From: Austropuccinia psidii
Taxonomy: Eukaryota; Basidiomycota; Pucciniomycetes; Pucciniales; Sphaerophragmiaceae
NCBI GenBank assembly: GCA_023105745.1
Contig: JALGQZ010000008.1
Coordinates: 24,627,866-24,691,865 of the forward strand
DNA length: 64,000 bases
Direction: 5' to 3'
A program made the position numbers and the translations under genes. The notes under the pieces were generated by a model. That model worked only from the letters and a program-made list of their open reading frames with translations. It was not told the origin of the DNA and did no database searches. Positions 13,482-59,479 of this stretch are shown here, in pieces (the stretch's first letter is position 1; each line of letters starts with the position of its first letter).

Positions 13482-14830
13482 TCTGCGGCTCTTACAGCCC
13501 CAGCAACTTATTTTTTTGCATTCATTTTTTATTTTTGTTTTTTCATTTATTTTTTATAAAACTTCATTTTTTATTTTTATTTAATTTCAATTCTGGAGCT
13601 CTTACAGGCCTAGTGACTAATTTTTTTTTAAAAATTTAATTTTCAATTCTTTTTTCATTTTTATTTATTTTAATTTCTATTTATTCAATTTAATTGCTGG
13701 GGCTGTAAGAGCCCCAGAAAGCTTTCTTTTTTTAAAAAAATAATTTTTCATTTTTGTTTTCATTTTTTATTTATTTTTTTATTTAATTTGATTGCTGGGG
13801 CTGTAAGAGCCCCAGTGACTAATTTCTTTTTTAAAAATTTAATTTTTCATTTTTTTTTTCATTTATTTCATTTTTTTTTCATTTTTTTTTTCATTTTTTC
13901 TTCATTTATTCTTTATTAATTTTTTTTAAAATTTCATTTTTTATTTTTTTTTCATGTTCAATTATTTATTTTTATTTAATTTGATTGCTGGGGCTGTAAG
14001 AGCCCCAGCGACTCATTTTATACTTATTTTTTTCATTTTTATTAATTTTTATTTATTTATTTGATTGCTGGGGCTAATTTTTTTCAATTTTTTCTACTTT
14101 TTTTTCAGTTTTATTTATTTATTTGATCACTGGGGCTGTAAGAGCCCCAGTAACTATTCTTTCTTCTTTTTCATTTTTATTTATTTATTTGATTTCTGTG
14201 GTTGTAAGAGCCCCAGTGACTAATTCTTTTTGTTTTTTATTTTTATTTAATATGCTTTCTGGGGCTGTTAAAGTCCCAGAAAGCTCTCTTTTTTAAAAAA
14301 TTTAATTTTTTATTTTTATTTTTTATTTTTTTTAATTTGATTACTGGGGCCATAAGAGCCCCCATGGCTTATTTTTTTTTGAAAATTTATTTATTTATTT
14401 TTGTTTAATTTGATTTCTGGGGCTGTAAGAGCCCCCATGACTTTAAATCTTTTTTAAGAATTTAATTTGTTATTTTTTTCCTTTTTATTCAATTTATTTA
14501 TTTATTTTTATTTAATATGCTTTCTGGGGCCTCTTACAGCCCCAGTGACCTTTTTTTATAAATAATTTTTTTCCCCATTTTTATTTGTTTTATTTTTTCA
14601 TTTAATTTGATTGCTGGGGCTTTAAGATTCTTCTTTTAAAAATTTAATTGGCTTGCTGGGGCTCCTACAGCCACAGAGACTTATTTTTATTTAAGAATTT
14701 AATTTTTTATGCTTTTTTTCCTTTTAACTCAATTATTTTGATTTTTATTTTTGGTAATTTAATTTGCTAGCATTATTTTATGTTTTATTTACTTTTTTTG
14801 TTTAAGTTTCTTGCTGGGGAAACTTCTTTT
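13482..14830. repeat. Array of GC-rich hairpins in T-rich DNA
   Basis: About a dozen copies of a 21-bp hairpin (arms CTGGGGCT / AGCCCCAG, 5-nt loop GTAAG) plus several half copies are scattered at 60-190 bp spacing. Clear copies start at 13697, 13795, 13988, 14130, 14196, 14259, 14344 and 14417. Copies with the complementary loop CTTAC, i.e. flipped, start at 13482, 13593 and 14524. One at 14656 has loop CCTAC. Half copies lie near 14068, 14623 and 14813. Many are followed by TGACT or a near variant. The spacers are long T/A runs with no coding content. The stems are GC-rich in DNA that is otherwise almost all A and T. Confidence 0.85.
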
Positions 14831-24466: not shown

Positions 24467-25060
24467 TGAAACAAATCTTTGAGGAGTTGGTGGAGCTGAA
24501 GAACTTGATCCATGTCTTTCCAGTCCTCTGGTTTGAGGTCCCTGTCGAAATGGAGTGTGAATGGCAAGGTTGATATTATCTCCCTCATTGTTTTGCCATC
24601 CACCACTGTGTCAAAGGTGTCCTTTTCCAGGTCTTTGGGTTCTGGACAAGCCTTCTATGTCCTCTGGTTGGTTCCTTTGGAAGCCAAGGTCTCTGAGGTA
24701 TACATGTGACATTCCAGTGTTTGCAAGCAGTCAAAAACTTTATGTTCTTAGGGTATTTACCTTTGACTGTGCCTTTTACAAATTTGTTGTCTGCGGATTT
24801 GGGCAACTTAGCTTTAGAGGTTACAACTGGGTTAATTATAGTAATTTTCCCTGTAAAAGCTGTTAAGGTTGGTTTACCTTGTATTGAAGCAGAATTTTGT
24901 GGTTTTCTACTCTTCTGATTGGCAATAGGTGTCCACTTCTTTGCTGTTATCAGGCCTTCACTGTGCCTCTTTCCTTTTCCTTTGCTTCAATCTGGTTCTG
25001 AGGGTGTCACTGGTATGGTGGCCTGTGACTGGCTTTCAAGTGGTATGAAGTTATCTTCCA
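23992..25060 (-). pseudogene. Element 1 ORF1 (spliced), broken
   Basis: Exon 2 is 24761-25060 and exon 3 is 23992-24692, with a 68-nt intron at 24693-24760. The start codon would be formed by A27034 plus TG at 25060-25059. The product matches ORF1 of element 3 through DGKTMREIISTLPF, WKDMDQVLQLHQLLK and the C-terminal KLLDLVKEVHKSQK. Unlike element 3 it has stops in exon 2 (after SEPD) and early exon 3 (after TNQRT), so this copy makes no full protein. Confidence 0.6.
24693..24760 (-). other. Element 1 predicted 68-nt intron 2
   Basis: GTAAAT donor and ATACCTCAG acceptor on the minus strand, identical in length and position to elements 2 and 3. The stop that ends unspliced ORF1 in the other copies is TGG here, so the stop-start junction is lost. 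Confidence 0.6.
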
Positions 25061-27077: not shown

Positions 27078-27579
27078 TGTCAGGTTGAGTCTATGTAGAA
27101 GTAGTAATTAGGCTATTTGAAGCTTTAACTGTGACTGTGACACGTGATAAAAGATTAAGAATATAGGTATTGATTGATAATAAGGGTTCATAATAAGATT
27201 TAAAGGGCTTTACTATTATAAAATAGTGGTGGTGAGTGCTGTTGAAAGCCCTGGGTGCAGCTTTACCTGTTGTATGACAATAATGAAGACTAAAATAATT
27301 AATATTATAATTATACCTGCTAATTTTCCAAGGGTATAGCTGTTTTTGACAGTTTTACTATGTAGGAATTTAAGAGAAGGATGTGGAAAGCCCCCCTTTT
27401 ATCCTGGAATGGGGTGGAAAGGCTGCTAGACCTTTCCATGTAGAGGAAGTGGAGATTTTTTCACTCTCTGAGACAGGCTTGTGGTTTGCAAAGGCCTGTA
27501 TAGGGCTCAGATGTGGTTTTGAAACCACATCTAGGCAGTTTTCACCAATACAGGGTGAAAAGTTTCATCTGGGGACAAC
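27078..27579 (-). repeat. Element 1 5' LTR, first piece
   Basis: Starts TGTCAGGTTGAG like the 3' LTR and stops at ACAAC (27575-27579), where element 2 is inserted. The remainder resumes at 37270. Total length 1,410 bp against 1,400 for the 3' LTR. Confidence 0.92.
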
Positions 27580-29018
27580 TGTCAGGATGAGTCTATGTTG
27601 AAGAAGTAATAAGGCTATTTACAACTAAAAATATGACTGTGACACGGTAAAAATGGTTTCAAAAGATAATAAAGTTGATAATGGATGATTAAATTAAGAT
27701 TTTAAGGGCTTTACTATAGAGATATAGTGGTGGTGAGCGCTGCTGAAAGCCCTGGGTGCAGCTTTATCTGTTGGGTTACAATGATAAAAGACTACAATAA
27801 TTAAATTTATAATTATACCTGACTATTAACCAAGAGTAAAACTGTTTTTGACAGCTTACTACGTAGGTTATTCAAGAGCAGGATGAGGAGATGATTTTGG
27901 CTGTGAAAAGCCCTCCTTTTATCCTGAAATTGGGGTGGAAAGGCTGCTAGACCTTTCCTTGTAGAGGAAGTGAAGATTTTTCACTCTCCAGGACAGGCTT
28001 GTGGTTTATAAACAGCCTGTATACCCTGTATTGGGCTCAGATGTGGTTTTGAAACCACATCTGGGCGGTTTTCACCAATACAGGGTGAAAACTTTCATCT
28101 GGGGACCTCACAGCCTGATTCTGACGTGTATGACGCGTAGAATGCTGTACAGAAACTGTATGGGACCCCAGTATTGGCTGACATATGAGGTATTGAAGTA
28201 AAAACATGCTTCTTTGTCTATTTGACACCTCATATACATGATTATGGGATATTATCCCATGGTAAGGCTGTATATGACAGCAGGTGGGATTTTGACCTTA
28301 AACCAGCCATAACTCTGTCAGTTTTTGAGATATCAACCTAGGAATTGGTTCATTGGATAGCTCTGTATGAGCCCAACACAATGGTACCCAATTTGGTATG
28401 GTTATCATGAAATATGGCAAAGTTATCCCATGTACAAGGTTTTTTGTACATAGGCATGGTTTGGGCAAAAAGCTGTATTGAGCTTGTTTGCCTCATAACT
28501 TCTGTTATAGTTGAGATATGAATAAGTGGATGGCACCATCAGATAGCCCTGATTGTGCTCTTTCCAAAGATACCCCACTTCAGGTATCCCACACTAAAAC
28601 TGTAGAAGTTAGATGAGAGGTGAATGTTTTGTTCACCCTTATTTGGCCTGAAATTGACCATAACTCCAGTAATATTGGTGCTAGCTCAGTTTGGCTGGTA
28701 CCATTGGATAGCCCTGGTCTAGAGCTTCATTTTGAATACCCATTTGATGGGGTTAAGCTTCTTCTTCTAGATTTTAGATGAGAGGTCAAAATTAAGGTTT
28801 ATGCTCAGCAATAACTTTGAGCAGGAATAACTTTGTTATTTCTTGTCCTATGGTGATGGGAATTATATTTTCTGAAAGAGGTGAGTTTTCTCTAGCTTAT
28901 GATACCTTTTGAGCTAATTTGGCTCAGCTCCATGTTTTGGTGGTATCTTGGCTATACCATTGGTTTATGGTATTTTGGCTGTCATGCTTGTGCTCTGGTT
29001 TTGAGTCACAGGCTGACA
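27580..29018 (-). repeat. Element 2 3' LTR
   Basis: 1,439 bp, TGTCAGG...CTGACA. It contains the hairpin block: outer stem 28025-28034 with 28075-28084, inner 12-bp hairpin 28038-28063, and the alternative hairpin 28068-28092. Loosely repeated ATAACT-containing segments start near 28308, 28495, 28661 and 28810. Confidence 0.94.
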
Positions 29019-33224: not shown

Positions 33225-34896
33225 TCATTTTACTGCATGCTCTAGTTCTTCTGGAAGTTGTGTCAGGAGTTTGTGATTCCTCATTTGGATGTTCATCTGA
33301 GGATCAATGGCTTTGAGTCTTTTAGACTGTCTAAGAAACCACTCATATGGATCTTTGTCCACAGAGTATTTTTCATTTTCAAATGACATGGTCTTTTGCC
33401 ATATCCAAGTTCCATTACTGTACTTTTGGATGATTTGATTCTTCCACCATGGCCAGTTTCTTCTGCCATGGATTTCTTTCATTTCTGTGTACCATATACT
33501 TGCATGACCTTTAAATGAAGTATTCAATATAGCAGTGATCCAGTAGTCTGGTATGCTTGGTACATCAATGAAGAGTCCATCAATATAATATATGAGTTCC
33601 ATATGATCATATTCTCCTGATCCAGAGAATTTGGGCCAGTTGGAGGTCTCAGGAAGCTGTTTCAAGGCTTCCTTCTCTGAATAAGACATGCCATCTCCAC
33701 CCTGGTATTGTGATGGATATCTTGCCTTATTCAACATCATGGCATCTGGTTTGATGTCATCTGGCTGATATGGATTCTCCATACCTTGGCCTTGTGGTTG
33801 TGGCTTCAAGCTATGATAGGCATTAAACAATTTGTTAATGTCTTGATCCAGAAACTCCCTGTCCCTTGTGCTGTGGTGTTGTTCTTCAAAGACTATATTC
33901 AGTCTTTTGTTGGTTTCTTCAGAGGCTTTTCTCAGTTGAGCATATCCTTCTTGAAGATTTTAACTATTTGTTCCAAGGAGGCTTGAGTTTGTCTCATCCT
34001 TCCTTGGCTAGCTTTAATTTCTGAAAACTGCTTTGCAGATTGTTCAGCATATTGGGACATTCTTAACCACAGTGTACAATGTTGATCTTACTCTCAGATG
34101 TGACAATGTTATGTTCAGTCTGAGTGGGGGTAATGTTTCTATTACTAGGACTACTTATTCTAGAGTGGCTTACAACTACTTCTGGTTCTTGTGCACTTCT
34201 TTTACCAAATCCAACAGCTTCTGAATCATAGGGTCTGACTCTTTCCTCCTCTGGTTGAAGGAGGCTTTGTTCTTGCCCTTGTTTCCTTGTCTTCTCCTGG
34301 AAACTTCCTGGAATTGTGAAGAATGGTGACTCTTGGCCACTGATCTGTTGGTTTCTGAATGGTGTGAAGCCACTGGAGAGCTGATTTGGCCTGCTCCTTG
34401 TGAGCCTGAAGGAATCTATGTAGGCCCTGTCTGGGTTAACTGTTCTTCTATAGCTTGGATAGTGGCTTGATCCTCCCTTATCCTCTGTGCCCTTGCCTCC
34501 AGGAGTCTGTGCTGCCTGGTAGGATTCCAGCCTTTGGTGATTTCCATAAGGTCTTTGAAGTCTATCTCTTTGAGACAGATCTTCTGGCAACTTGATCCAA
34601 GTTCTTCCCAGTGAGTTTCTAGGTTGAACCTCTTGTTGTCCATGCTCCATTGAAACAAATCTTTGAGGAGTTGGTGGATCTGAAGAACTTGATCCATATC
34701 CTTCCAGTCCTCTGGTTTGAGGTTTCTGTTGAATTGGAGTGTGAATGGCAAGGTTGATATTATCTCCCTCATTGTTTTGCCATCCACCACTGTGTCCAAG
34801 GTGTCTTCTTCCAGGTCTGCTGGTTCTGGACAATCCTTCTCTGTCTTCTGGCTGGTTCCTTTTGAAGCCAAGATCTCTGAGGTATGCAGGGGACAT
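33225..34896 (-). pseudogene. Element 2 Gag (Gag-Pol frame)
   Basis: The frame opens at ATG 34896-34894, which lies inside the 68-nt intron and one base after the TGA that ends unspliced ORF1. The first 277 codons (34063-34896) are Arg/Gln/Ser/Pro-rich, poor in hydrophobic residues and wholly overlap ORF1. A frameshift near 34000 leads to 33225-33830, which holds the capsid-like core (WPKFSGSGEYDHMELI, DYWITAILN, IWYTEMKEIHGRRNWPWW, PYEWFLRQSKRLKAI). Gag builds the virus-like particle. The order Gag then zinc knuckle then protease continues downstream. Confidence 0.82.
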
Positions 34897-35244
34897 ATCA
34901 GTGTTTGCAAGCAGTCAAAAACTTTATGTTCTTAGGGTATTTACCTTTGACTGTGCCTTGTACAAATTTTTTTTCTGCTGACTTGGGCAGTTTGCCTTTG
35001 GAAGTTACAACTGGGTTAATAATTGTAATCTTTCCTGTACAAGTGGTTAAGGTTGGTTTACCTTGTATGGATGCAGAGTTTCGTGGTTTTCTACTTCTCT
35101 GAGTGGCTATGGGTGTCCACCTTTTGGCTGTAATGAGACCTTCACTGTGCCTCTTTCCTTTGCCCTTGCTGCCCTCTGGTTCTGAGGGTGTCACTGGTGT
35201 GTTGGCCTGTGACTGGGTCTCAAGTGGGATGTAATTTTCTTCCA
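34176..35244 (-). pseudogene. Element 2 ORF1 (spliced), one nonsense codon
   Basis: Predicted from a splice-formed start: A35793 plus TG 35244-35243 gives ATG, with A at -3 and G at +4. Exon 2 (34945-35244) encodes 100 residues of Lys/Ser/Thr/Pro-rich sequence. The 68-nt intron (34877-34944) then joins it to exon 3 (34176-34876), with hydrophobic helices (DMDQVLQIHQLLKDLFQW) and a charged C-terminal LLDLVKEVHKNQK. The frame is open except for TAG 34416-34418, which is CAG in element 3. In the overlapping Gag frame the same base only changes Thr to Ile. The function of ORF1 is unknown; the helices could oligomerise. Confidence 0.65.
34877..34944 (-). other. Element 2 predicted 68-nt intron 2 (ORF1/Gag-Pol switch)
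   Basis: Donor GTAAAT, acceptor ATACCTCAG. Retained, it ends ORF1 with TGA (34900-34898), and the Gag-Pol ATG starts at 34896 (TGATATG). Removed, it fuses ORF1 codon 100 to the second frame. The size is typical of rust introns. Its length is identical in all three elements. Confidence 0.65.
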
Positions 35245-35792
35245 CTGAATCAAGGCAGGAAAAAAGAGGGCTTATGTCAGTTAAGACTTCTCAAGGATGC
35301 TGGTTTTGCACGTCTAAGATTGGCCTCTGGGCTTGTATGTTACTACAATGTGCCCTGTATAATGACAGTGTAATTGAATCAACAATTTCACTTCAGAATT
35401 ACAGCTTTTGGTACCCTGTCACACTGTTTGTGTGCCAGTATCCCACAGATACACTTGTGGTTTTCAAGTGTATTCTGTACAAGTGGTTTTGTATAAGTGT
35501 TATTGAGTTAACAATACACTTAACCACGCCTCAACTGATGGTTTTTCAGTCAGAGGTGTCCTTATTCAGTCAAGAATACAGGACTTATTGATGGCTTATG
35601 TGTTTTTATATACAAAACACGCCAAAAATATTTATTTTCAGTGGGTATTAACCACGTGAATGATACTCTTATAATATGAGTATATATAAAGAAAAGGATA
35701 AAGATATATAAAATATATATCTTAATAGAGAAATCACGCCTAAAAAAAGATAAAACACTTGTTAATAAGTCATAAAAAGAGAAAAGACTTAC
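35245..35792 (-). other. Element 2 predicted leader intron 1
   Basis: Donor GTAAGT at 35792-35787, 30 nt after the primer-binding site. Acceptor is a pyrimidine-rich tract ending GATTCAG at 35245. Length 548 nt. The last exon-1 base is A35793. Confidence 0.65.
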
Positions 35793-35838: not shown

Positions 35839-37264
35839 TGTCAGGATGAGTCTATGTTGAAGAAGTAATAAGGCTATTTACAACTAAAACTATGACTGTG
35901 ACACGGTAAAAATGGTTTTAAAAGATAATAAATTTGATAATGGATGATTAAATTAAGATTTTAAGGGCTTTACTATAGAGATATAGTGGTGGTGAGCGCT
36001 GCTGAGAGCCCTGGGTGCAGCTTTATCTGTTGGGTTACAATAATAAAAGACTACAATAATTAAATTTATAATTATACCTGATGATTATTAACCAAGCGCA
36101 GAACTGTTTTTGACAGTTTACTACGTAGGTTATTCAAGAGCAGGATGAGGAGATGATTTTGGCTGTGAAAAGCCGTCCTTTTATCCTGAAATTGGGGTGG
36201 AAAGGCTGCTAGACCTTTCCTCGTAGAGGAAGTGAAGATTTTTCACTCTCCAGGACAGGCTTGTGGTTTACAAACAGCCTGTATACCCTGTATTGGGCTC
36301 AGATGTGGTTTTGAAACCACATCTGGGCGGTTTTCACCAATACAGGGTGAAAATTTTCATCTGGGGACCTCACAGCCTGATTCTGACGTGTATGACGCGT
36401 AGAATTCTGTACAGAAACTGTATGGGACCCCAGTATTGGCTGACATATGAGGTATTGAAGTAAAAACATGCTTTTTCGTCTATTTGACACCTCATATTCT
36501 TGATTATGGGATATTATTCCATGGTAAGGCTGTATATGACAGCAGGTGGGATTTTGACCTTAAACCAGCCATAACTCTGTCAGTTTTTGTAATATAGACC
36601 TACAAATTGGTTCATTGGATAGCTCTGTATGAGCTCTACACAATGGTACCCAATTTGGTATGGTTATCATGAAATATGGCAAAGTTATCCCATGTACAAG
36701 GTTTTTTGTACATAGGCATGGTTTGGGCAAAAAGCTGTATTGAGCTTGTTTGCCTCATAACTTCTGTTATAGCTGAGATATGAAGGAGTGAATGGAACCA
36801 TCAGATAGCCCTGATTGTGCTCTTTCCAAAGATACCCCACTTCAGGTATCCCACACTAAAACTGTAGAAGTTAGCTGAGAGGTGAATGTTTTGTTCACCC
36901 TTATTTGGCCTGAAATTGACCATAACTCCAGTAATATTGGTGCTAGCTCAGTTTGGCTGGTACCATTGGATAGCCCTGGCTTAGAGCTTCATTTTGAATA
37001 CCCATTTGATGGGGTTAAGCCTCTCCTTCTAGATTTTAGATGAGAGTTGAAAATTAAGGTTTATGCTCAGCAATAACTTTGTTATTTCTTGTCCTATGGT
37101 GATGGGACTTATATTTTCAGAAAGAGGTAAGTTTCCTCTATATTTTGATACCTTTTGAGCTAATTTGGCTCAGCTCCATGTTTTGGTGGTATCTTGGCTA
37201 TACCATTGGTTTATGGTATTTTGGCTGTCATGCTTGTGCTCTGGTTTTGAGTCACAGGCTGACA
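35839..37264 (-). repeat. Element 2 5' LTR
   Basis: 1,426 bp, TGTCAGGATGAG...CTGACA, followed by the TSD ACAAC. It is about 2% different from its partner in the part compared. The 12-bp hairpin is at 36300-36325. Confidence 0.94.
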
Positions 37265-37269
37265 ACAAC

Positions 37270-38177
37270 ATAGCCTTCTTCTGACGCGTAGGACATGTAG
37301 AATGCTGTACAGAAACTGTATGGGACCCCAGTATTGACTTATGTATGAGGTATTGAAGTATAAACATGCTTCTTTGTTTTTTTGACACCTCATAACCATG
37401 GTTATCGGATATTATCCCATGGTAAGGCTGTATTGGCCAGAATGTGGGATTTTGACCTTGAAACATCCATAGCTTTGTCAGTTCTTGAGATATAAAACTC
37501 AAAACTGGTTTGGTGTGTATCCCTGTATGTGTTATACACAATGGCACCTTATTTGATATGGTTATCATGAAATATGGCCAAGCTAACCCATGTACAAGAT
37601 ATTTTGTACATATGCGTGTTTTAGGCAAAAGCTGTTTTGGCCTTGTTTGCCCATAGCTTTTGTTCTAGTTGAGATATGAGGAAATGGATGACACCATCAG
37701 ATAGCCCTGATTTTGCGCTTTCCAAAAAGACCCCACTTTAGGTATCTCACACTAAAACTGTAGAAGTTAGATGTGAGGTGAATATTTTGTTCACCCTTAT
37801 TTGGCCTGAATTTGACCATAACTTCTGTAATACTGGTGCTAGCTCAGTTTGGCTGGTACCATTGAATAGCCCTGACTTGGAGCTTCATTTTGAATAACCA
37901 TTTGATGGGGTTAAGCTACTTACTCTGTATTTCAGATTAGAGGTGAAAATTAAGGTTTATGCTCAGCAACAGCTTTGAGCAGGAGTAACTTTGTTATTAT
38001 TTGTCCTATGATGATGGGACTTTTATATTTGGAAAAGGGTGAGTTTCCCCTTATTTTTGATACCTTTTTGAGGTAATTCGGCTCAGCTCCATGTTTTGGT
38101 GGTATCTTGGCTATACCATTGGTTTATGGTATTTTGGCTATCATGCTTGTGCTCTGGTTTTGAGTCACAGGCTGACA
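37270..38177 (-). repeat. Element 1 5' LTR, second piece
   Basis: Resumes the LTR broken at 27579 (ATAGCCTTCTTCTGAC matches the 3' LTR at 17970) and ends CTGACA before the outer TSD ATTCC. Confidence 0.92.
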
Positions 38178-38182
38178 ATTCC

Positions 38183-39144
38183 AATAGTAATGTTTATTTT
38201 GTCATTTTACTAATCAAGCACTGATATATTTGACCTAATTAGGAAGAATTCATTATTAATTCATCAACCAGCCAGATACAACAGCTCCAAAAATTGTGGG
38301 TGTTCACTTATCTCACACAAGGAGGCCAAGCCAGTTATCTCTTCTCAGAATTTATTGTTGTCACTTGAGCTGCACTCACAGCTCCTGAAGATTCCACATG
38401 GGAATGACCTTCCAAAAATAAAATCCCTAATACTATTTTTAAAAACATCACTCCAGCATCATCAAAAGAAAAGACTAGCATTGCTCTTGGATAGAGAAAC
38501 CCCAAATGGAAAATCAGAAAATTCTCTGTGGTTAAATAAACCATCATCCTTAACTAGAAGAATAAATTTGATACATAGCACCACAAAGAAGCAAGTAAAC
38601 AACCTCCAAGGCTCCTTCAGCCCTACTCCCTTGGGCTGTCTGCTTTCATATGACATGGGACTAGGCAAATCAATTCAGTGCATATCACTCATATGTATGA
38701 CTCTTCAAGATTCCAAGAGAGATATTCCACCATCCATCCAGTTTTTTAATAAAAAAATTAAAACATTCCACACTCATAATATTATAACCTTGTTTGATAA
38801 AGAATTGGGAAGATGAATTCAAATTACACACAGACATATCCCTACTAAAACTTGTGTCACCTATCATGGGAAGAAAAGAAAGGAGATTGGAATTAAAAGA
38901 TGGTCCACAGTTGATATTGTAATAGCCAGCTATCATTTGTTAGCCCATATGTTTGGTCAGCCTAATAATATATAAAGATCTTGGATTTACCATAGTGAAT
39001 GGTACTGAGTTTTTAAGCTTGTTATTTAGAAATGGGGAATTCTGATGAAAGATTTATAAATTAAATTGACATAAATAGTCAGATAAGAAGTCAGGAGTCA
39101 ACCTCCTTCAAAGGAATTGTTGAAATCCAAACATCCAGATGCAT
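38183..39144 (+). pseudogene. SNF2-like helicase remnant, ATPase part
   Basis: Continues the frame broken at 17457. HQPARYNSS is followed by LKTSLQHHQKKRLALLLDRE and then LLSYDMGLGKSIQCISLI, the Walker A motif of SNF2/RAD5-type ATPases (usually DDMGLGKT). Further on, TCVTYHGKKRKE and VDIVIASYHLLA match the next motifs, all in one frame. Stops at 38211, 38814, 38973 and 39006 kill it. The frame loses similarity after about 39010, before the DEAH box, and no C-terminal helicase lobe is present. SNF2 proteins remodel chromatin or act in repair. This family is multicopy and often transposon-linked in rusts. Confidence 0.75.
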
Positions 39145-45484: not shown

Positions 45485-46386
45485 CATCCTCTCTTGGCCA
45501 GCTTCAATTTCTGCAAACTGCTTTGAAGATTGCTCAGCATATTGGGACATTTGTAACCACAGTGTACAATGTTGATCTTACTCTCAGATGTGACAATGTT
45601 ATGTTCAGTCTGAGTGGGGGTAATGTTTCTATTACTAGGACTACTTATTCTAGAGTGTCTTACAACTACTTCTGGTTCTTGTGCACTTCTTTTACCAAAT
45701 CCAACAGCTTCTGAATCATAGGGTCTGACTCTTTCCTCCTCTGGTTGAAGGAGGTTTTGTTCTTGCCCTTGTTTCCTTGTCTTCTCCTGGAAACTTCCTG
45801 GAATTGTGAAGAATGGTGACTCTTGGCCATTGATCTTCTGGTTTCTGAATGATGTGAAGCCACTGGAGAGCTGATTTGGCCTGCTCCTTGTGAGCCTGAA
45901 GGAATCTGTGTAGGCCCTGTCTGGGTTAACTGTTCTTCTATAGCTTGGATAGTGGCTTGATTCTCTCTTATCCTCTGTGCCCTTGCCTCCAGGAGTCTGA
46001 ACTGCCTGGTAGGATTCCAACCTTTGGTGATTACCATCAGGTCTTTGAAGTCTATCTCTTTGAGACAGATCTTCTGGAAACTTGCTCCAAGTTCTGCCCA
46101 GTGACTTGCCAGGTTGAACCTTTTTTTGTCCATGCTCCATTGAAATAAATCTTTGAGGAGTTGGTGGAGCTGAAGAACTTGATCCATATCCTTCCAGTCC
46201 TCTGGTTTGAGGTTCCTGTTGAATTGGAGTGTGAATGGCAAGGTTGATATTTTCTCCCTCATTGTTTTGCCATCCACCACTGTGTCCAAGGTGTCCTCTT
46301 CCAGGTCTTCTGGTTCTGGACAAGCCTTCTCTGTCCTCTGGCTGGTTCCTTTGGAAGCCAAGGTGTCTGAGGTATGCAGGGGACAT
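45484..46386 (-). pseudogene. Element 3 Gag N-terminal frame (overlaps ORF1)
   Basis: 300 codons open from the intron-borne ATG (46386). Arg/Gln/Ser/Gly/Pro-rich, ending with heptad-like KCPNMLSNLQSSLQKLK before a stop. It overlaps ORF1 over 45666-46386 (721 bp) in the frame starting one base upstream of the ORF1 codons. The same relation holds in elements 1 and 2. Confidence 0.75.
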
Positions 46387-46734
46387 ATCAGTGTTTGCAA
46401 GCAGTCAAAAACTTTATGTTCTTAGGGTATTTACCTTTGACTGTGCCTTGTACAAATTTGTTATCTGCTGATTTGGGCAGTTTGTCTTTGGAGGTTACAA
46501 CTGGGTTAATATTTGTAATTTTTCCTGTAAAAGTGGTTAAGGTTGGTTTACCTTGTATTGAATCAGAGTTTTGTGGTTTTCTACTCCTCTGAGTGGCTAT
46601 TGGTGTCCACTTTTTGGCTGGAATGAGGCCTTCACTAAGTCTTTTTCCTTTGCCCTTGCTTCCCTCTGGTTCTGAGGGTGTCACTGGTGTGTTGGCCTGT
46701 GACTGGGTCTCAAGTGGTATGAAATTTTCCTCCA
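45666..46734 (-). CDS. Element 3 ORF1 (spliced, fully open, 333 residues)
   Basis: Predicted spliced ORF. The start codon forms from A47282 and TG 46734-46733, with A at -3 and G at +4. Exon 2, 46435-46734, gives residues 1-100, basic and Pro/Ser/Thr-rich. After the 68-nt intron exon 3, 45666-46366, gives residues 101-333. Visible parts of exon 3: an acidic stretch (EPEDLEEDTLDTVVDG), helices around WKDMDQVLQLHQLLKDLFQW, a basic RRRQGNKGKNK segment and the C-terminus LLDLVKEVHKNQK. No stop occurs in either exon although Gag-Pol of the same element is broken. No known domain is recognised. It could be a Gag-like or accessory protein. Without splicing there is no ATG for this frame and a TGA at 46388-46390. 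Confidence 0.65.
46367..46434 (-). other. Element 3 predicted 68-nt intron 2
   Basis: GTAAAT donor, CCTCAG acceptor. It contains TGATATG, the ORF1 stop followed one base later by the Gag-Pol ATG. Confidence 0.65.
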
Positions 46735-47281
46735 CTGAATCAAACAGGAAAAAGAGGGCTTATGTCAGTTAAGACTTCTTAAAAGGCTGGTTTTGCACGT
46801 CTAAGAATGGCCTCTGGGCTTGTATATTGTTACAATATGCCCTTGTATGATGACAGTGTAATTGAATTAACAATTCCACGTCAAAAAATACAGCTTATTG
46901 ATATGTGGCAGACTGTTTGTATACCAATATCTTACAGAATACTTGTAGTTAGCAAGTATGATCTGTCAAAGGTGGTGTATTACAGGGCAATTGAGTTAAC
47001 AATGTGCCCAAACACGCCTCAACTGTTGGTTTATCAGTGTGAGTTGTCTTGATTCAATTAAGAATTAAGACTGTATTAGTGGCTTACAAGTGTTTTTATA
47101 TACAAAACACACCAAAAATACTGGTCTTGTGGTTATGAGCCACGTGACAGATACTCCTTAAAATATGAGTATTTTTAAAAAATAAAGAAAAATATATAAA
47201 AATATATTTTTTTAAAGAAAATGACGCCTAAAAAAAGATAAAACAAGTGTCAATAAGTGATAAAAAGAGAAAAAAATTTAC
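46735..47281 (-). other. Element 3 predicted leader intron 1
   Basis: 547 nt, donor GTAAAT at 47281-47276, acceptor GATTCAG ending 46735. Donor position relative to the PBS is as in the other two copies. Confidence 0.6.
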
Positions 47282-55509: not shown

Positions 55510-55768
55510 AGATAACCTCAACTTCAATAAAAATTAAAATTAAAATAAAAAAAAACAAAAAAAAAACTTAACTTTTCCAGAATATCTTTCACAACAAAAA
55601 CTGGAGTCAAATAATCAAAATCAGCAAAAACCATCATCTCAAGAATCTGAATCATCAACTCACTCTGACCATTACTATTATCCACCAAAGCAAGAAACAG
55701 AACTAGGGGAGGAATCAAATAAATATTCCAATTTCCCAATTGCAACACCAAGGACCAATAAAAGGGAC

Positions 55769-57757
55769 TTGAAGGTTGTGGAGAAATTTTTCCTTGATCT
55801 CCTTGAAAGAAATAAAATCAATAACTCAATACCAGAATCAAAAGAAGAAATAAACCAATCAAAAATGGATAAACCTTCATCATCAAAATTACCTGGTAGT
55901 ATTGAAGAAATCCAGGAAGAAAACTTTAATGAAGAAACTGTTGAAGGACAGGAAGAAATGTCTTCAACAGAGAGACTTCAGCAGAAGATGCTAGAAATGC
56001 AAGCAGAATTACTAGCACTACTCAAAAAAGAAGGGAAAAGTAAATCATCAAGTTATACTCCACAAAATAGTCCACTTGAAGAGCAAACCACCCTTCCAAG
56101 ATCATTCAGGCAGCATGGATCACCTTCACCTTATCCTAGACCCATGGCCACATCAACACCTTATACAGAACAAAGACACTTACCAAGAAGAGTCAACATT
56201 TCTTCCCAAATGCCAGCTCCATTACATCAAGAAATTCCAAGAAACACTACTCCAATAGTGAAAATCAGAGCCAAGGACTATAACTTGTGGTTTGATGGAA
56301 AGGATGTTGAAAGATTCATCAAGAAAGTTGAAAATATTGCAGAAATTGAAGGAGCAAGTGGAAGAGACATTGCAAGACAAATAGCATTTTGGACAAAAGA
56401 TGAAGAAATCAGTTATCATATTGAAGGAATGCCAGGATATGAAACAGCTGATTGGGATCAATTGAAAGTGGATATGAAAAGAAGATGGGGAACAGTCTCA
56501 CCTGAAAGAAGATACAGATTATCCTCAATCACTGAATTATTCACAAAAACTCAACAAGAAGGTGGAATAAGAAACATGACTCAATACAGAAAATTCATTG
56601 GGGAATATGAAGCAATCATCACTTACCTCAAAAGATACCAATATATCCAAGGTGATATCAATCATAACCAGGAAATATTGGCCAGCCTTTCCACCAGTGT
56701 TCAAGAATCAATTTACAAAGAAATGATTAAAGACAGGGCTATGGTTCAAGCCTCGGATGGAGGTTACATAATTCCAAGATTGGATATTTTGAGATTATAC
56801 ATTGAACAAGACTTGGAGGCCAAGGTACTTATTCAACAAAAAGAATTTTCTAAACCAAAACCTCCAGAAAAGAAAACAAGATTTGAGGATGAAAGCTGGG
56901 ATGAAGTTTCAAAACAAGTAAAAGAACTCACCCAAAAGATCAAAAATCCTCCACAACCAGAGCCTCAACCAAGAAATGAAGGAAAAGAATCAGTTAAAGA
57001 AGTTTTGAATCAACTCAAAACCCTTTCAGAAGCAGTTAATCCACCAAGAAGGAACTGGAACAATAATCAAGAGCAAAGATTCCCTCAAAATAACCAACCA
57101 TACAAGCCAAGGAATCCTTTACCACCATTTTCATCCAGTTACCAACCATACATACCAGCTCAAATGGCCCCAAGACCACCAATGAAATGTGCTTACTGCA
57201 AGGAAGAAGGCCATACAGCAACTAGAGGCACTCACCTTGCTGAAGATTTAGACAGAAGAATTTTCAGAACCCAAGGAGCATCTTACCTTTTCCCCAACTA
57301 TCAGAGAGTACCTATAGAAGGAAATGAAAGTGCCAAAGACATAGTCAGGGCCTTTGCAAAAGAACAAGCAGAACTCAACAAGAAATTTATGGAGAAACCT
57401 ATTGTCAAAGAAAAACCAGAAGAAGAGGTTAAGCCCACTGCAAAGAAATCAGAAGATAAATCAACCTCAATTGCACATGTTGAAGATTGGTCAAATTGGA
57501 AACCACCTACCATTTCCTCAGCCAATGACCCCTTTCAATCACACATTGGATTAAGGCAGACCAAGCAAAGAATGGAAAGACAATCCCAAAATCAAGAGCC
57601 AAAGAAGAAAGCAGATATTCCAGGAACTTACATGGAAGAAGAAAAAGAGGAAGAAAGAGTAATAATTCCCACCAAATTCCAAAATTCAAATATTCCAAAA
57701 CCAGACCAACCTGAGGAGGAAATTGAAAATATTGCCAATAAAAATGAAGATGAATAA
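55769..57757 (+). CDS. Family-B Gag
   Basis: Open frame of 662 codons. The first ATG is 55865 (about 630 residues), but the same frame is coding-like back to about 55568 (Gln/Ser/Asn-rich, PEYLSQQ, HYYYPPK) without an ATG, so an upstream start joined by splicing is possible. Parts: acidic coiled N-terminus (STERLQQKMLEMQAELLALL), Pro/Ser linker, capsid-like core (about residues 165-350: YNLWFDGKDVERFIKKVENIAEIEG, WDQLKVDMKRRWG, YRKFIGEYEAIITYL), basic linker, then a knuckle CAYCKEEGH whose fourth Cys is Gly. It ends in TAA 57755-57757, and the same frame continues as protease. This Gag type (WxxLKxxMxxRWG) is common in rust retroelements. Confidence 0.85.
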   Translation: MKVVEKFFLDLLERNKINNSIPESKEEINQSKMDKPSSSKLPGSIEEIQEENFNEETVEGQEEMSSTERLQQKMLEMQAELLALLKKEGKSKSSSYTPQNSPLEEQTTLPRSFRQHGSPSPYPRPMATSTPYTEQRHLPRRVNISSQMPAPLHQEIPRNTTPIVKIRAKDYNLWFDGKDVERFIKKVENIAEIEGASGRDIARQIAFWTKDEEISYHIEGMPGYETADWDQLKVDMKRRWGTVSPERRYRLSSITELFTKTQQEGGIRNMTQYRKFIGEYEAIITYLKRYQYIQGDINHNQEILASLSTSVQESIYKEMIKDRAMVQASDGGYIIPRLDILRLYIEQDLEAKVLIQQKEFSKPKPPEKKTRFEDESWDEVSKQVKELTQKIKNPPQPEPQPRNEGKESVKEVLNQLKTLSEAVNPPRRNWNNNQEQRFPQNNQPYKPRNPLPPFSSSYQPYIPAQMAPRPPMKCAYCKEEGHTATRGTHLAEDLDRRIFRTQGASYLFPNYQRVPIEGNESAKDIVRAFAKEQAELNKKFMEKPIVKEKPEEEVKPTAKKSEDKSTSIAHVEDWSNWKPPTISSANDPFQSHIGLRQTKQRMERQSQNQEPKKKADIPGTYMEEEKEEERVIIPTKFQNSNIPKPDQPEEEIENIANKNEDE

Positions 57758-59479
57758 ATTCCAAAACAAGAAAAGAAAGTCAGCAAGCCTCAAAAGAAAC
57801 AAGTTGAAACTAAATTGGAAATTGATAAAATTATCAAGAAAATTATGCAACAAAAGATCAACCTCACCATTGAAGAAATTTTGAGGATGTCACCCAATTT
57901 TGTCCATAAGTTACAAGAATTATCAGAAAAAGACAAAGAAAAGATTAAGTCACTCAACTCAATGGATCTTCAAGAAAGGTTATTATCATTTGGATTCAAA
58001 GAAATACCAAAGCCCAAGATTCATTATGCCTGTCCTTTGGGATTTATGGAAATCTTCATTGGAAAGGAAGAATATCCTATCAGAGCATTAGTGGACACTG
58101 GGGCAGAACTCAACATTATACCAGAGGAAATAGCAATCAAAGCCTCCCTCACAACAAGAAATCTCAACATGAACCTCAGAGGTATTGGAGGACATACCAC
58201 TTCATTGGTGGCACTTTCAGAATTTACTCCAATCATTTTGGCTTCAGGTGAAGAAACTCTAATTCACTTCTTCATTGCAAAAGGATCTGTCCATACAGTA
58301 CTTGGAAGACCCTTCTTGGCAGACAACAATATCAGACTAGAATTTTCCCATAGACAAGGTGAGATACTCAGTTATCAAGAGCCTGATGGAAGAAGATTAT
58401 GCATGCCAATATGCAAACCTCAAGCACTGGGATGGCAAACTGGTCCACCTAGAGGAATGGATTTATGCAACATGGCAGCATTGGTCAGAAATAACCCAGG
58501 AAGGAAGGATCAAAATGCAAAAAGAGACCATACCATAATCAATTTAACCCAGAAGACCCAAGAGTTATCCATATCTCCAAAAAGTGATGAATTTGGTCAA
58601 GATTTACAAAATACCCAATGGCCAAACAACCTCAAAAGACAACTTGAAGACTCAACCTCTGAAGATGAATTACCCAATATAAGTTACAAGACAATTAACA
58701 ATAATGAAGAAAAATTCCAAATTCTGGTGGATGGAAATGAGAAAATAAATGGAAATCCTTTCAAAACCAAACCCAAAAGAAAGAAAGTCAGATTTAGTGA
58801 ACATCATGAGCTCTCAGATGAAGAAATTATAAATGAAATTGAAAAAGACTTCAAAATTATGGAAGAAAGAGACAAAAACACATACCATATCAACTTCTTG
58901 GACAGACCATTGAACAGCCAAGAAGAGCCTTATGAATGGCAACTGGAAAACCCTGAATTCATCCAGCAACCTCCCAATGAAGATGATGAAACAGAATCCA
59001 TCCTAGAAAATGAATACAACTACCTTTATCTGCCATATATTACCTTTGAAGACCTTTATGGGGATGAAGCTCAAGAAATTTTATGTGAAGATAAATATTT
59101 ATGTCAACTTCCAGGAGCAAACTTGAGCAAAATCCAATTCTTAGAGATATTAACTGAAGAAGGAATTAAAGGAAAACTCTCAAATCAATTCTGGGATAAA
59201 ACATTTTCAATGGGAATTTTACCAAGAAGAGGCCTCTACTTCAATCAAATTTGGGCCCAGTGGTACCTTGGATTGAATGGATCAACATATCAAACTGGAA
59301 GACTGAAATGGGTTGGAGATGGATATATATTCATTGATGAAAATTTATGGTGGTCAGAATTTCCATCAGAAGCAGAAATAGAAGAAAGAAATGCCTTTTT
59401 GGAAGCCCTCAAAGATCTTATTTTGGCCAGATTAATCAACAGACACTCACCTTTCCCACCTGGGGGAGCTCAACTTTAA
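57758..59479 (+). CDS. Family-B retropepsin polyprotein
   Basis: Same frame as Gag after one TAA; 554 codons counting from a TTG at 57815, no ATG at the start. Retropepsin at about residues 72-155: YACPLGFMEIFIG, ALVDTGAELNIIP (DTG at 93-95) and VLGRPFLADNNIRLEF. A Lys-rich KPKRKKVRFSEHHE stretch and a long acidic Glu/Asn-rich region follow, then a Trp/Phe-rich end (LKWVGDGYIFIDENLWWSEFP). It has no RT domain. Expression would need readthrough of the TAA, or the TAA is a mutation. Confidence 0.82.
   Translation: MPKQEKKVSKPQKKQVETKLEIDKIIKKIMQQKINLTIEEILRMSPNFVHKLQELSEKDKEKIKSLNSMDLQERLLSFGFKEIPKPKIHYACPLGFMEIFIGKEEYPIRALVDTGAELNIIPEEIAIKASLTTRNLNMNLRGIGGHTTSLVALSEFTPIILASGEETLIHFFIAKGSVHTVLGRPFLADNNIRLEFSHRQGEILSYQEPDGRRLCMPICKPQALGWQTGPPRGMDLCNMAALVRNNPGRKDQNAKRDHTIINLTQKTQELSISPKSDEFGQDLQNTQWPNNLKRQLEDSTSEDELPNISYKTINNNEEKFQILVDGNEKINGNPFKTKPKRKKVRFSEHHELSDEEIINEIEKDFKIMEERDKNTYHINFLDRPLNSQEEPYEWQLENPEFIQQPPNEDDETESILENEYNYLYLPYITFEDLYGDEAQEILCEDKYLCQLPGANLSKIQFLEILTEEGIKGKLSNQFWDKTFSMGILPRRGLYFNQIWAQWYLGLNGSTYQTGRLKWVGDGYIFIDENLWWSEFPSEAEIEERNAFLEALKDLILARLINRHSPFPPGGAQL

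Follow-up and report, generated by a model that had tools for sequence, protein, structure and literature searches.

LTR retrotransposons must divide one RNA among Gag-Pol synthesis, genome packaging and other proteins, and to our knowledge the solutions are mostly frameshifting or simple splicing. In complex retroviruses the major splice donor lies near the primer-binding site; unspliced RNA serves for Gag-Pol, and spliced RNA serves for accessory proteins in overlapping frames. Termination-reinitiation systems, found in fungal viruses and some LINEs, have a stop codon that adjoins a start codon.

Alternative splicing of LTR retrotransposon RNA has been described for BARE1, a Ty1/copia element of barley with a facultative intron of 104 nt, and for Drosophila copia (PMC3735527). 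In the account cited, a small facultative intron alters what is translated, as we propose here, but the spliced RNA of BARE1/copia makes Gag alone, whereas the join proposed here would remove the Gag ATG and read another frame; unlike in those elements, a start codon would be made by a second intron. In Saccharomyces GCR1, translation of unspliced RNA begins at a start codon within the retained intron, and the spliced RNA uses an exon 1 start (PMC7826247). The element proposed here would likewise use an ATG inside an intron, which is kept in 68 of 69 copies. GCR1 is a host gene whose two isoforms (844 and 789 residues) seem to have most of the protein in common, and the passages on it in that article mention no second overlapping frame or splice-made AUG, both of which are proposed here (PMC7826247). 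Elements of the Drosophila MDG1 group, as presented in the source cited, likewise carry accessory ORFs upstream of gag; LTR-to-LTR transcripts of the accessory region gave no evidence of splicing there, and an extra short transcript was consistent with a polyadenylation site (PMC11952523).

We analysed a 64-kb stretch of Austropuccinia psidii DNA (the window), and sequence and evolutionary comparisons suggest that its Ty3/gypsy elements probably belong to a lineage with a two-intron start-codon switch. No description of such an arrangement was found in the open-licence literature searched. The proposed element would share with complex retroviruses a donor near the primer-binding site, unspliced Gag-Pol RNA and spliced, overlapping accessory frames; unlike them, it is a fungal Ty3/gypsy element, and its putative accessory frame overlaps the N-terminal part of Gag. 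Unlike termination-reinitiation systems, it has an upstream ORF that lacks an AUG on unspliced RNA, and a branch point would explain the stop.

Elements and copies

The window holds three minus-strand elements (elements 1, 2 and 3, which are copies 1, 2 and 3 below), in each of which two LTRs flank the coding region; the LTR pairs are 83.6%, 95.4% and 91.8% identical, respectively. Element 2 matched the Pfam families RVT_1, RT_RNaseH, Integrase_H2C2, rve and Tf2-1-like SH3 above cut-off, and its match to zf-CCHC, the zinc knuckle of Gag, scored 20.6 bits at a cut-off of 20.8. An integrase match was found in element 3, where the Pfam scan covered the integrase part only, and element 1 resembles the other elements by DNA similarity. 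With reverse transcriptase, RNase H, integrase, zinc knuckle and paired LTRs, the elements are Ty3/gypsy LTR retrotransposons.

All three window copies have decayed. The Gag-Pol frame is one base short ahead of the MSQ of Gag in copies 2 and 3, and it meets a stop at codon 34 in copy 1. Because of these lesions, the unbroken Gag-Pol frame from the intronic ATG to MSQ is found in other copies and not in these three. The initial annotation had placed the Gag-Pol start inside an intron; the ATG itself is kept in 68 of 69 copies, but in the window copies the frame that it opens is broken before MSQ.

The genome of A. psidii, the myrtle rust fungus, is described as ~1.02 Gb in size and more than 90% transposable elements, mostly Gypsy (PMC8063080). 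In the 1,015,390,075-base assembly the family is abundant: two queries gave 6,151 and 6,595 first-look DNA candidates, 40 of which were scored for each. The closest deposited proteins are those of A. psidii MF-1, with 94% identity at the head of the list. From this one genome we compared 69 copies, namely the 3 window copies, 58 loci picked by DNA similarity and 8 from a protein search; the set of 61 DNA-selected copies comprises the DNA-similarity loci including the three window copies. The sample consists of two close clades (A and B) and the eight more divergent copies, all eight of which were picked free of stops in the second frame (f2, below). Three regions adjoining reverse-transcriptase matches were also retrieved, and those matches turned out to belong to other families. 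Beyond MSQ, shared variants are frequent and the two clades separate less cleanly (G000 copies), which may reflect recombination between subfamilies.

Other features were seen in the window. Between elements 2 and 3, a solo LTR fragment adjoins an open frame whose match to an SNF2-related Pfam family is slightly above cut-off (37269-38177, 38214-38816). Another retroelement-like stretch on the plus strand (55544-59479) has two long open frames, an aspartyl protease match and a DUF4100 match under its cut-off. Imperfect repeated blocks of ~75-79% identity lie at 13534-14627.

Introns and reading frames

Feature coordinates are collected in Table 1, in which f0 denotes the frame of ORF1, f1 that of the intronic ATG and Gag, and f2 that reached by splicing.

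Table 1. Positions of the proposed introns, frames and signals within the window (a slash marks a splice junction).
Feature	Element	Position	Strand	Remarks
5' LTR	2	35839..37264	-	partner 27577-29018, 95.4% identical
TATA-like GATAAAAGG in 5' LTR	2	36177..36185	-	~1.29 kb ahead of Gag ATG; start site inferred
Intron 1	2	35245..35792	-	548 nt; AA/GTAAGT ... TTGATTCAG/TGG; join = ATAATGG
Intron 1	3	46735..47281	-	547 nt; ACAA/TGG junction
ORF1 exon	2	34945..35244	-	300 nt, 100 codons from splice-made ATG, no Met codon of its own
ORF1 exon	3	46435..46734	-	joined ORF1-f2 open for 333 codons
Intron 2	1	24693..24760	-	branch point and TGA lost (CTGGA); copy reads TGGAATG
Intron 2, holds putative Gag(-Pol) start	2	34877..34944	-	68 nt, GTAAAT...CCTCAG
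Intron 2	3	46367..46434	-	68 nt, GTAAAT...CCTCAG
Branch-point-like CTGAT (CTRAY), includes TGA of ORF1	2	34897..34901	-	
Intronic ATG (MSP...)	2	34894..34896	-	putative Gag(-Pol) start on unspliced RNA
Exon 2 of spliced frame f2	2	34176..34876	-	premature stop; joined frame 253 codons
Exon 2 of frame f2	3	45666..46366	-	
Gag N-terminal extension, f1	2	34060..34896	-	836 nt to MSQ, usual 837
Gag N-terminal extension, f1	3	45550..46386	-	one base short ahead of MSQ

The initial annotation had reported a 68-nt intron with GTAAAT and CCTCAG ends in each element, and its coordinates were confirmed in all three copies (intron 2). Removal of this intron indeed joins ORF1 (100 codons from the splice-made ATG plus one base) in frame to a second open frame, f2. 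With the intron retained, as had also been stated, ORF1 ends at TGA and an ATG follows one base on in copies 2 and 3, and the loss of the TGA (to TGG) in element 1 was likewise borne out. TCAAAG lies directly 5' of the intron in all three window copies. Its length was 68 nt in 69 of 69 copies, of which 66 kept the GT, 68 the AG and 68 the intronic ATG, with CTRAY in 59 and TGANATG in 59. The joint upkeep of TGANATG and both splice sites, put forward earlier as a genome-wide check, was found in 56 of the 69. Intron 2 thus has the sequence features of a fungal spliceosomal intron: GT...AG ends, CTRAY near the 3' end, a short length and a join that preserves frame. In three divergent copies (L072, L074, L078) the acceptor appeared to be missing; this was rejected as an artefact of gap placement, each having an 18-nt in-frame deletion directly after a retained CAG.

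CTRAY is the usual fungal branch site, and the survey cited found it in 91% of 2022 Fusarium introns (PMC5677156). Because CTRAY always includes TGA or TAA, the stop of ORF1 comes along with the branch point. The branch-site A is located 21 nt ahead of the intron end, and the clade variants (CTGAT/CTGAC) stay within the consensus. Between TGA and ATG the single base was T in 35 copies, C in 22 and A in 2, that is, a pyrimidine in 57 of 59. We read the TGA as the core of a fungal branch point, which may also serve as a stop.

In all three window copies ORF1 lacks a methionine codon of its own, and it would gain an AUG only through the removal of intron 1 (547-548 nt), which joins A/TG. The intron 1 donor is situated just 3' of the LTR and a primer-binding-like site, and the acceptor, TTGATTCAG/TGG, directly ahead of ORF1. 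The join would give ...ACA ATG G... or ...AAA ATG G..., which by Kozak rules is a good start context (A at -3, G at +4). The donor is mostly AA/GTAAGT in one clade and AA/GTGAGT in the other, both of which keep the consensus. Of 61 copies, 44 have both the donor and the acceptor with A/TG, and one of these 44 (TCCA/) probably matches by chance; the 17 failures lacked the donor (11), the acceptor (4) or both (2). In element 1 the donor falls in a deletion. Among three further leaders, only L073 (~85% identical) retains the donor and A/TG; in L079 a deletion spans the acceptor, and in L072 no donor can be recognised and the base after the acceptor is altered. Two other arrangements were rejected. 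The first was an ORF1 start at the MKLLIQ methionine of some deposited models, whose ATGs (-414/-412) are CpG sites in other copies; the other was a short intron 1 whose donor, near position -446, is seen in most clade B copies and is mostly missing from clade A.

Frame f2 overlaps the Gag frame over 699 nt, and the doubly spliced ORF1-f2 frame is open for 333 codons in element 3. Of 61 copies, 53 have a distance of 837 nt from the intronic ATG to MSQ, and in 55 this distance is divisible by three, stops not counted. Deposited models, which are software predictions, were compared with both frames by pattern tests. Among the best 120 of 1618 matches to f1, 107 begin at the intronic ATG and 52 have the Gag MSQ at residue 280; among the best 120 of 1001 matches to f2, 31 are joined to ORF1 at the intron 2 junction. 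The first ATG in exon 2 of element 2 begins a short frame of 4 codons, MAKQ (34769-34783, minus strand), with identical letters in elements 1 and 3. The TGA of this frame overlaps the next ATG (ATGA), that of MREI in f2, at which several deposited models begin; the ATGA may be a reinitiation site on spliced RNA.

The spliced product would have ~333 residues, made up of the 100 codons of ORF1 and C-terminal 233 codons that overlap the Gag extension in the other frame. A profile search gave no PDB match, and Pfam yielded only weak, scattered one-member matches and no recognised domain. The predicted structure is helical and of low confidence (pLDDT 54). From its basic, helical make-up one might guess at an RNA-binding or post-transcriptional helper.

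Selection on the overlapping frames

Copies decay freely after insertion, and terminal branches were therefore taken as the neutral pattern; internal branches were taken to show which changes active lineages had kept. The first tree placed 186 changes of the 699-nt overlap on internal branches and 1209 on terminal ones. Among the 69 copies, with changes stratified by mutation type, internal changes that altered f1 were synonymous in f2 in 73 cases (52.9 expected, p = 4.7e-5), and those that altered f2 were synonymous in f1 in 46 cases (30.4 expected, p = 1.4e-4). The same stratified test of the 69 copies showed no synonymous bias in the third frame (p = 0.49). Dropping CpG changes left the results for f1 and f2 unaltered, and a rebuilt tree gave 72 against 53.5 expected for f2 (p = 1.9e-4) and 44 against 30.5 expected for f1 (p = 0.0011). 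Across runs the odds ratios were 2.2-2.3 for f2 (p = 5e-5 to 2e-4) and 2.1-2.5 for f1 (p = 1e-4 to 1e-3). Changes making a stop in the Gag frame numbered 1 of 183 on internal branches versus 84 of 1211 on terminal ones (69 copies). Internal-branch change was also rarer in the overlap than in the single-frame stretches that flank it (186:1209 versus 105:471, p = 0.006).

In the 61 DNA-selected copies, the f2 signal was significant (p = 2.7e-4) and the f1 signal was not (14 versus 10.5 expected, p = 0.18); f1 stop changes in this set were 1 of 90 internal versus 59 of 951 terminal (p = 0.054). Between the main clades, f2 had a synonymous excess (12 of 21 fixed versus 100 of 442 private changes), and f1 had none (5 of 21 and 85 of 442, respectively). 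By sub-region, neither f1 over the initial 104 nt of exon 2 (p = 0.59) nor f2 in the second half (p = 0.11) reached significance. At least one Gag-frame stop is held by 6 of the 8 divergent copies. These results indicate that f2 is clearly under purifying selection. They point with moderate strength to purifying selection on the Gag frame, f1, a signal that depends on the 8 more divergent copies. That is, as evidence for dual coding (overprinting), both frames appear constrained with 69 copies, and only f2 reaches significance with 61. The finding named in advance as one that would overturn the initial annotation, a frame 3' of the intron not under selection, did not occur.

ORF1 is under selection in f0, as judged from its substitutions: 20 of 25 clade-fixed changes were synonymous versus 45 of 181 private ones, and on internal branches 44 were synonymous versus 31.9 expected (stratified, p = 0.0016). 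Its last 114 nt alone gave no significant result (p = 0.33). Intron 2 had 13 internal versus 138 terminal changes in its body, which is more conserved than scanning requires, and this conservation leaves room for a restart at Gag or another RNA role. The part of the body up to the TGA (34897-34944, minus strand) has few internal-branch changes, fewer than the coding overlap, and could be a short ORF1 tail or an RNA element. Of four segments compared, the one with the lowest ratio of internal to terminal changes (3 versus 97) was a stretch of 59 nt at the 3' end of intron 1.

Shortage of AUG in the leader

The TATA-like GATAAAAGG lies at about -1.29 kb in copies 2 and 3 and closer in copy 1. 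From it to the intronic ATG, each window copy has one upstream ATG; farther upstream in the LTR, ATG occurs about once per 45 nt. In the leader from -1260 (61 copies), the mean number of ATGs was 3.9 in clade A and 6.5 in clade B, and that of CATs 23.7 and 21.7. At 181 of the 318 leader ATGs at least 3 other copies have CpG, and at 137 of 318 they do not; an ATG at -853 in clade B (13 of 30 copies) is of non-CpG origin. CpG sites recur in the leader (e.g. -759/-757, -495/-493 and -414/-412 from the Gag ATG), and CpG decay makes ATGs in old copies, so that decayed copies gain starts that gene predictors seem to use.

In the stretch from -620 to -52, which comprises part of intron 1 and all of ORF1, none of the 140 internal non-CpG changes made an ATG, compared with 46 of the 825 terminal ones (p = 9.5e-4). 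The CAT control for this stretch gave 6 of 140 versus 57 of 825 (p = 0.35), and the direct contrast of ATG with CAT gave p = 0.038. In ORF1 alone, CAT showed the same shortage as ATG: 84 internal changes made 1 CAT and 0 ATG, and 372 terminal changes made 22 of each. CpG-type changes on internal branches made an ATG in 10 of 21 cases. The start-codon part of our argument is weakened by this ORF1-only CAT control, the CpG-type internal ATGs and the two failed extra leaders. In intron 1 and ORF1, a shortage of AUG matters only if unspliced RNA is scanned. With so few AUGs in the leader, scanning ribosomes could reach the intronic ATG, and no reinitiation would be needed.

Discussion

We propose that on unspliced, full-length RNA, ribosomes would scan to the ATG in intron 2 and start there on a Gag(-Pol) extended by 279 residues at its N terminus. 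Intron 1 would start just 3' of the primer-binding-like site, and its removal would join ...A to TG..., creating the ORF1 AUG; removal of intron 2 would delete the Gag AUG and fuse ORF1 to f2, giving the accessory protein. RNA without intron 1 but with intron 2 would carry a 116-codon ORF1 and could restart at Gag. That splicing would choose between two proteins is supported by coordinates, frames, splice-site conservation, the upstream AUG shortage and selection on ORF1 and f2, with weaker selection on Gag; splicing itself, the transcription start, the primer-binding site, scanning and any regulation of the ratio are inferred. The initial annotation had already suggested a switch between two proteins. 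Selection on f2 and the conserved Gag start sustain that idea; its mechanism has changed, scanning and intron 1 taking the place of termination-reinitiation, which we no longer regard as the main route.

Under termination-reinitiation, ORF1 would be translated from RNA that retains intron 2, terminate at the TGA, and let ribosomes restart one base on at the Gag ATG. The adjacent stop and start fit this reading, as does TGANATG being kept in 59 of 69 copies, and the route would be open on RNA that has lost intron 1 but still carries intron 2. The intron 2 body up to the TGA is also unusually conserved, with 3 of 6 internal changes synonymous in f0 versus 0.9 expected (p = 0.005), but a second alignment of the body gave 2 of 7 (p = 0.28). 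On RNA with both introns in place, ORF1 of the window copies lacks an AUG from which it could be translated, the AUG-poor leader fits direct scanning, and the TGA belongs to CTRAY, with a pyrimidine next in 57 of 59. We consider this route unlikely. Intron 2 might instead be an ordinary constitutive intron, the ORF1-f2 protein being the sole real product here and the Gag extension a passive open frame, with Gag starting downstream, e.g. at MSQ. The stronger f2 signal, the non-significant Gag-frame test in the 61 DNA-selected copies, and the Gag-frame stops in 6 of 8 divergent copies (all 8 chosen free of f2 stops) agree with this. Yet the ATG-to-MSQ distance of 837 nt in 53 of 61 copies, MSQ at residue 280 in 52 of the best 120 of 1618 models, and the single stop change among 183 internal changes of the Gag frame speak for a maintained extension, and a shortage of AUG through intron 1 and ORF1 is unexpected unless unspliced RNA is scanned; we judge a constitutive intron to be quite improbable. 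That neither intron is spliced, and that the spliced frame is an artefact arising from gene prediction and from constraint at the nucleotide level (RNA packaging signals, for example), seems very improbable: ORF1 and f2 show frame-specific synonymous bias whereas the third frame does not, and both introns have a conserved donor, branch point and acceptor, with clade differences that keep the consensus (GTAAGT/GTGAGT, CTGAT/CTGAC).

The two-intron start-codon switch could be part of a programme like that of complex retroviruses, in which unspliced RNA would serve as Gag-Pol message and genome, and the overprinted product of the doubly spliced RNA would feed back on splicing, export or packaging. 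In such a programme splicing would make one start codon and destroy another in the same RNA, and the start of the spliced RNA would exist only after splicing. We offer this extension tentatively, as a possibility that we hold with less confidence than the switch itself.

If the switch is real, splicing would both build and remove start codons over an overprinted gene, a compact new solution to the sharing of one RNA. The element group is abundant in the gigabase genome of a plant pathogen, and its many decayed copies provide a neutral control for the study of overlapping genes.
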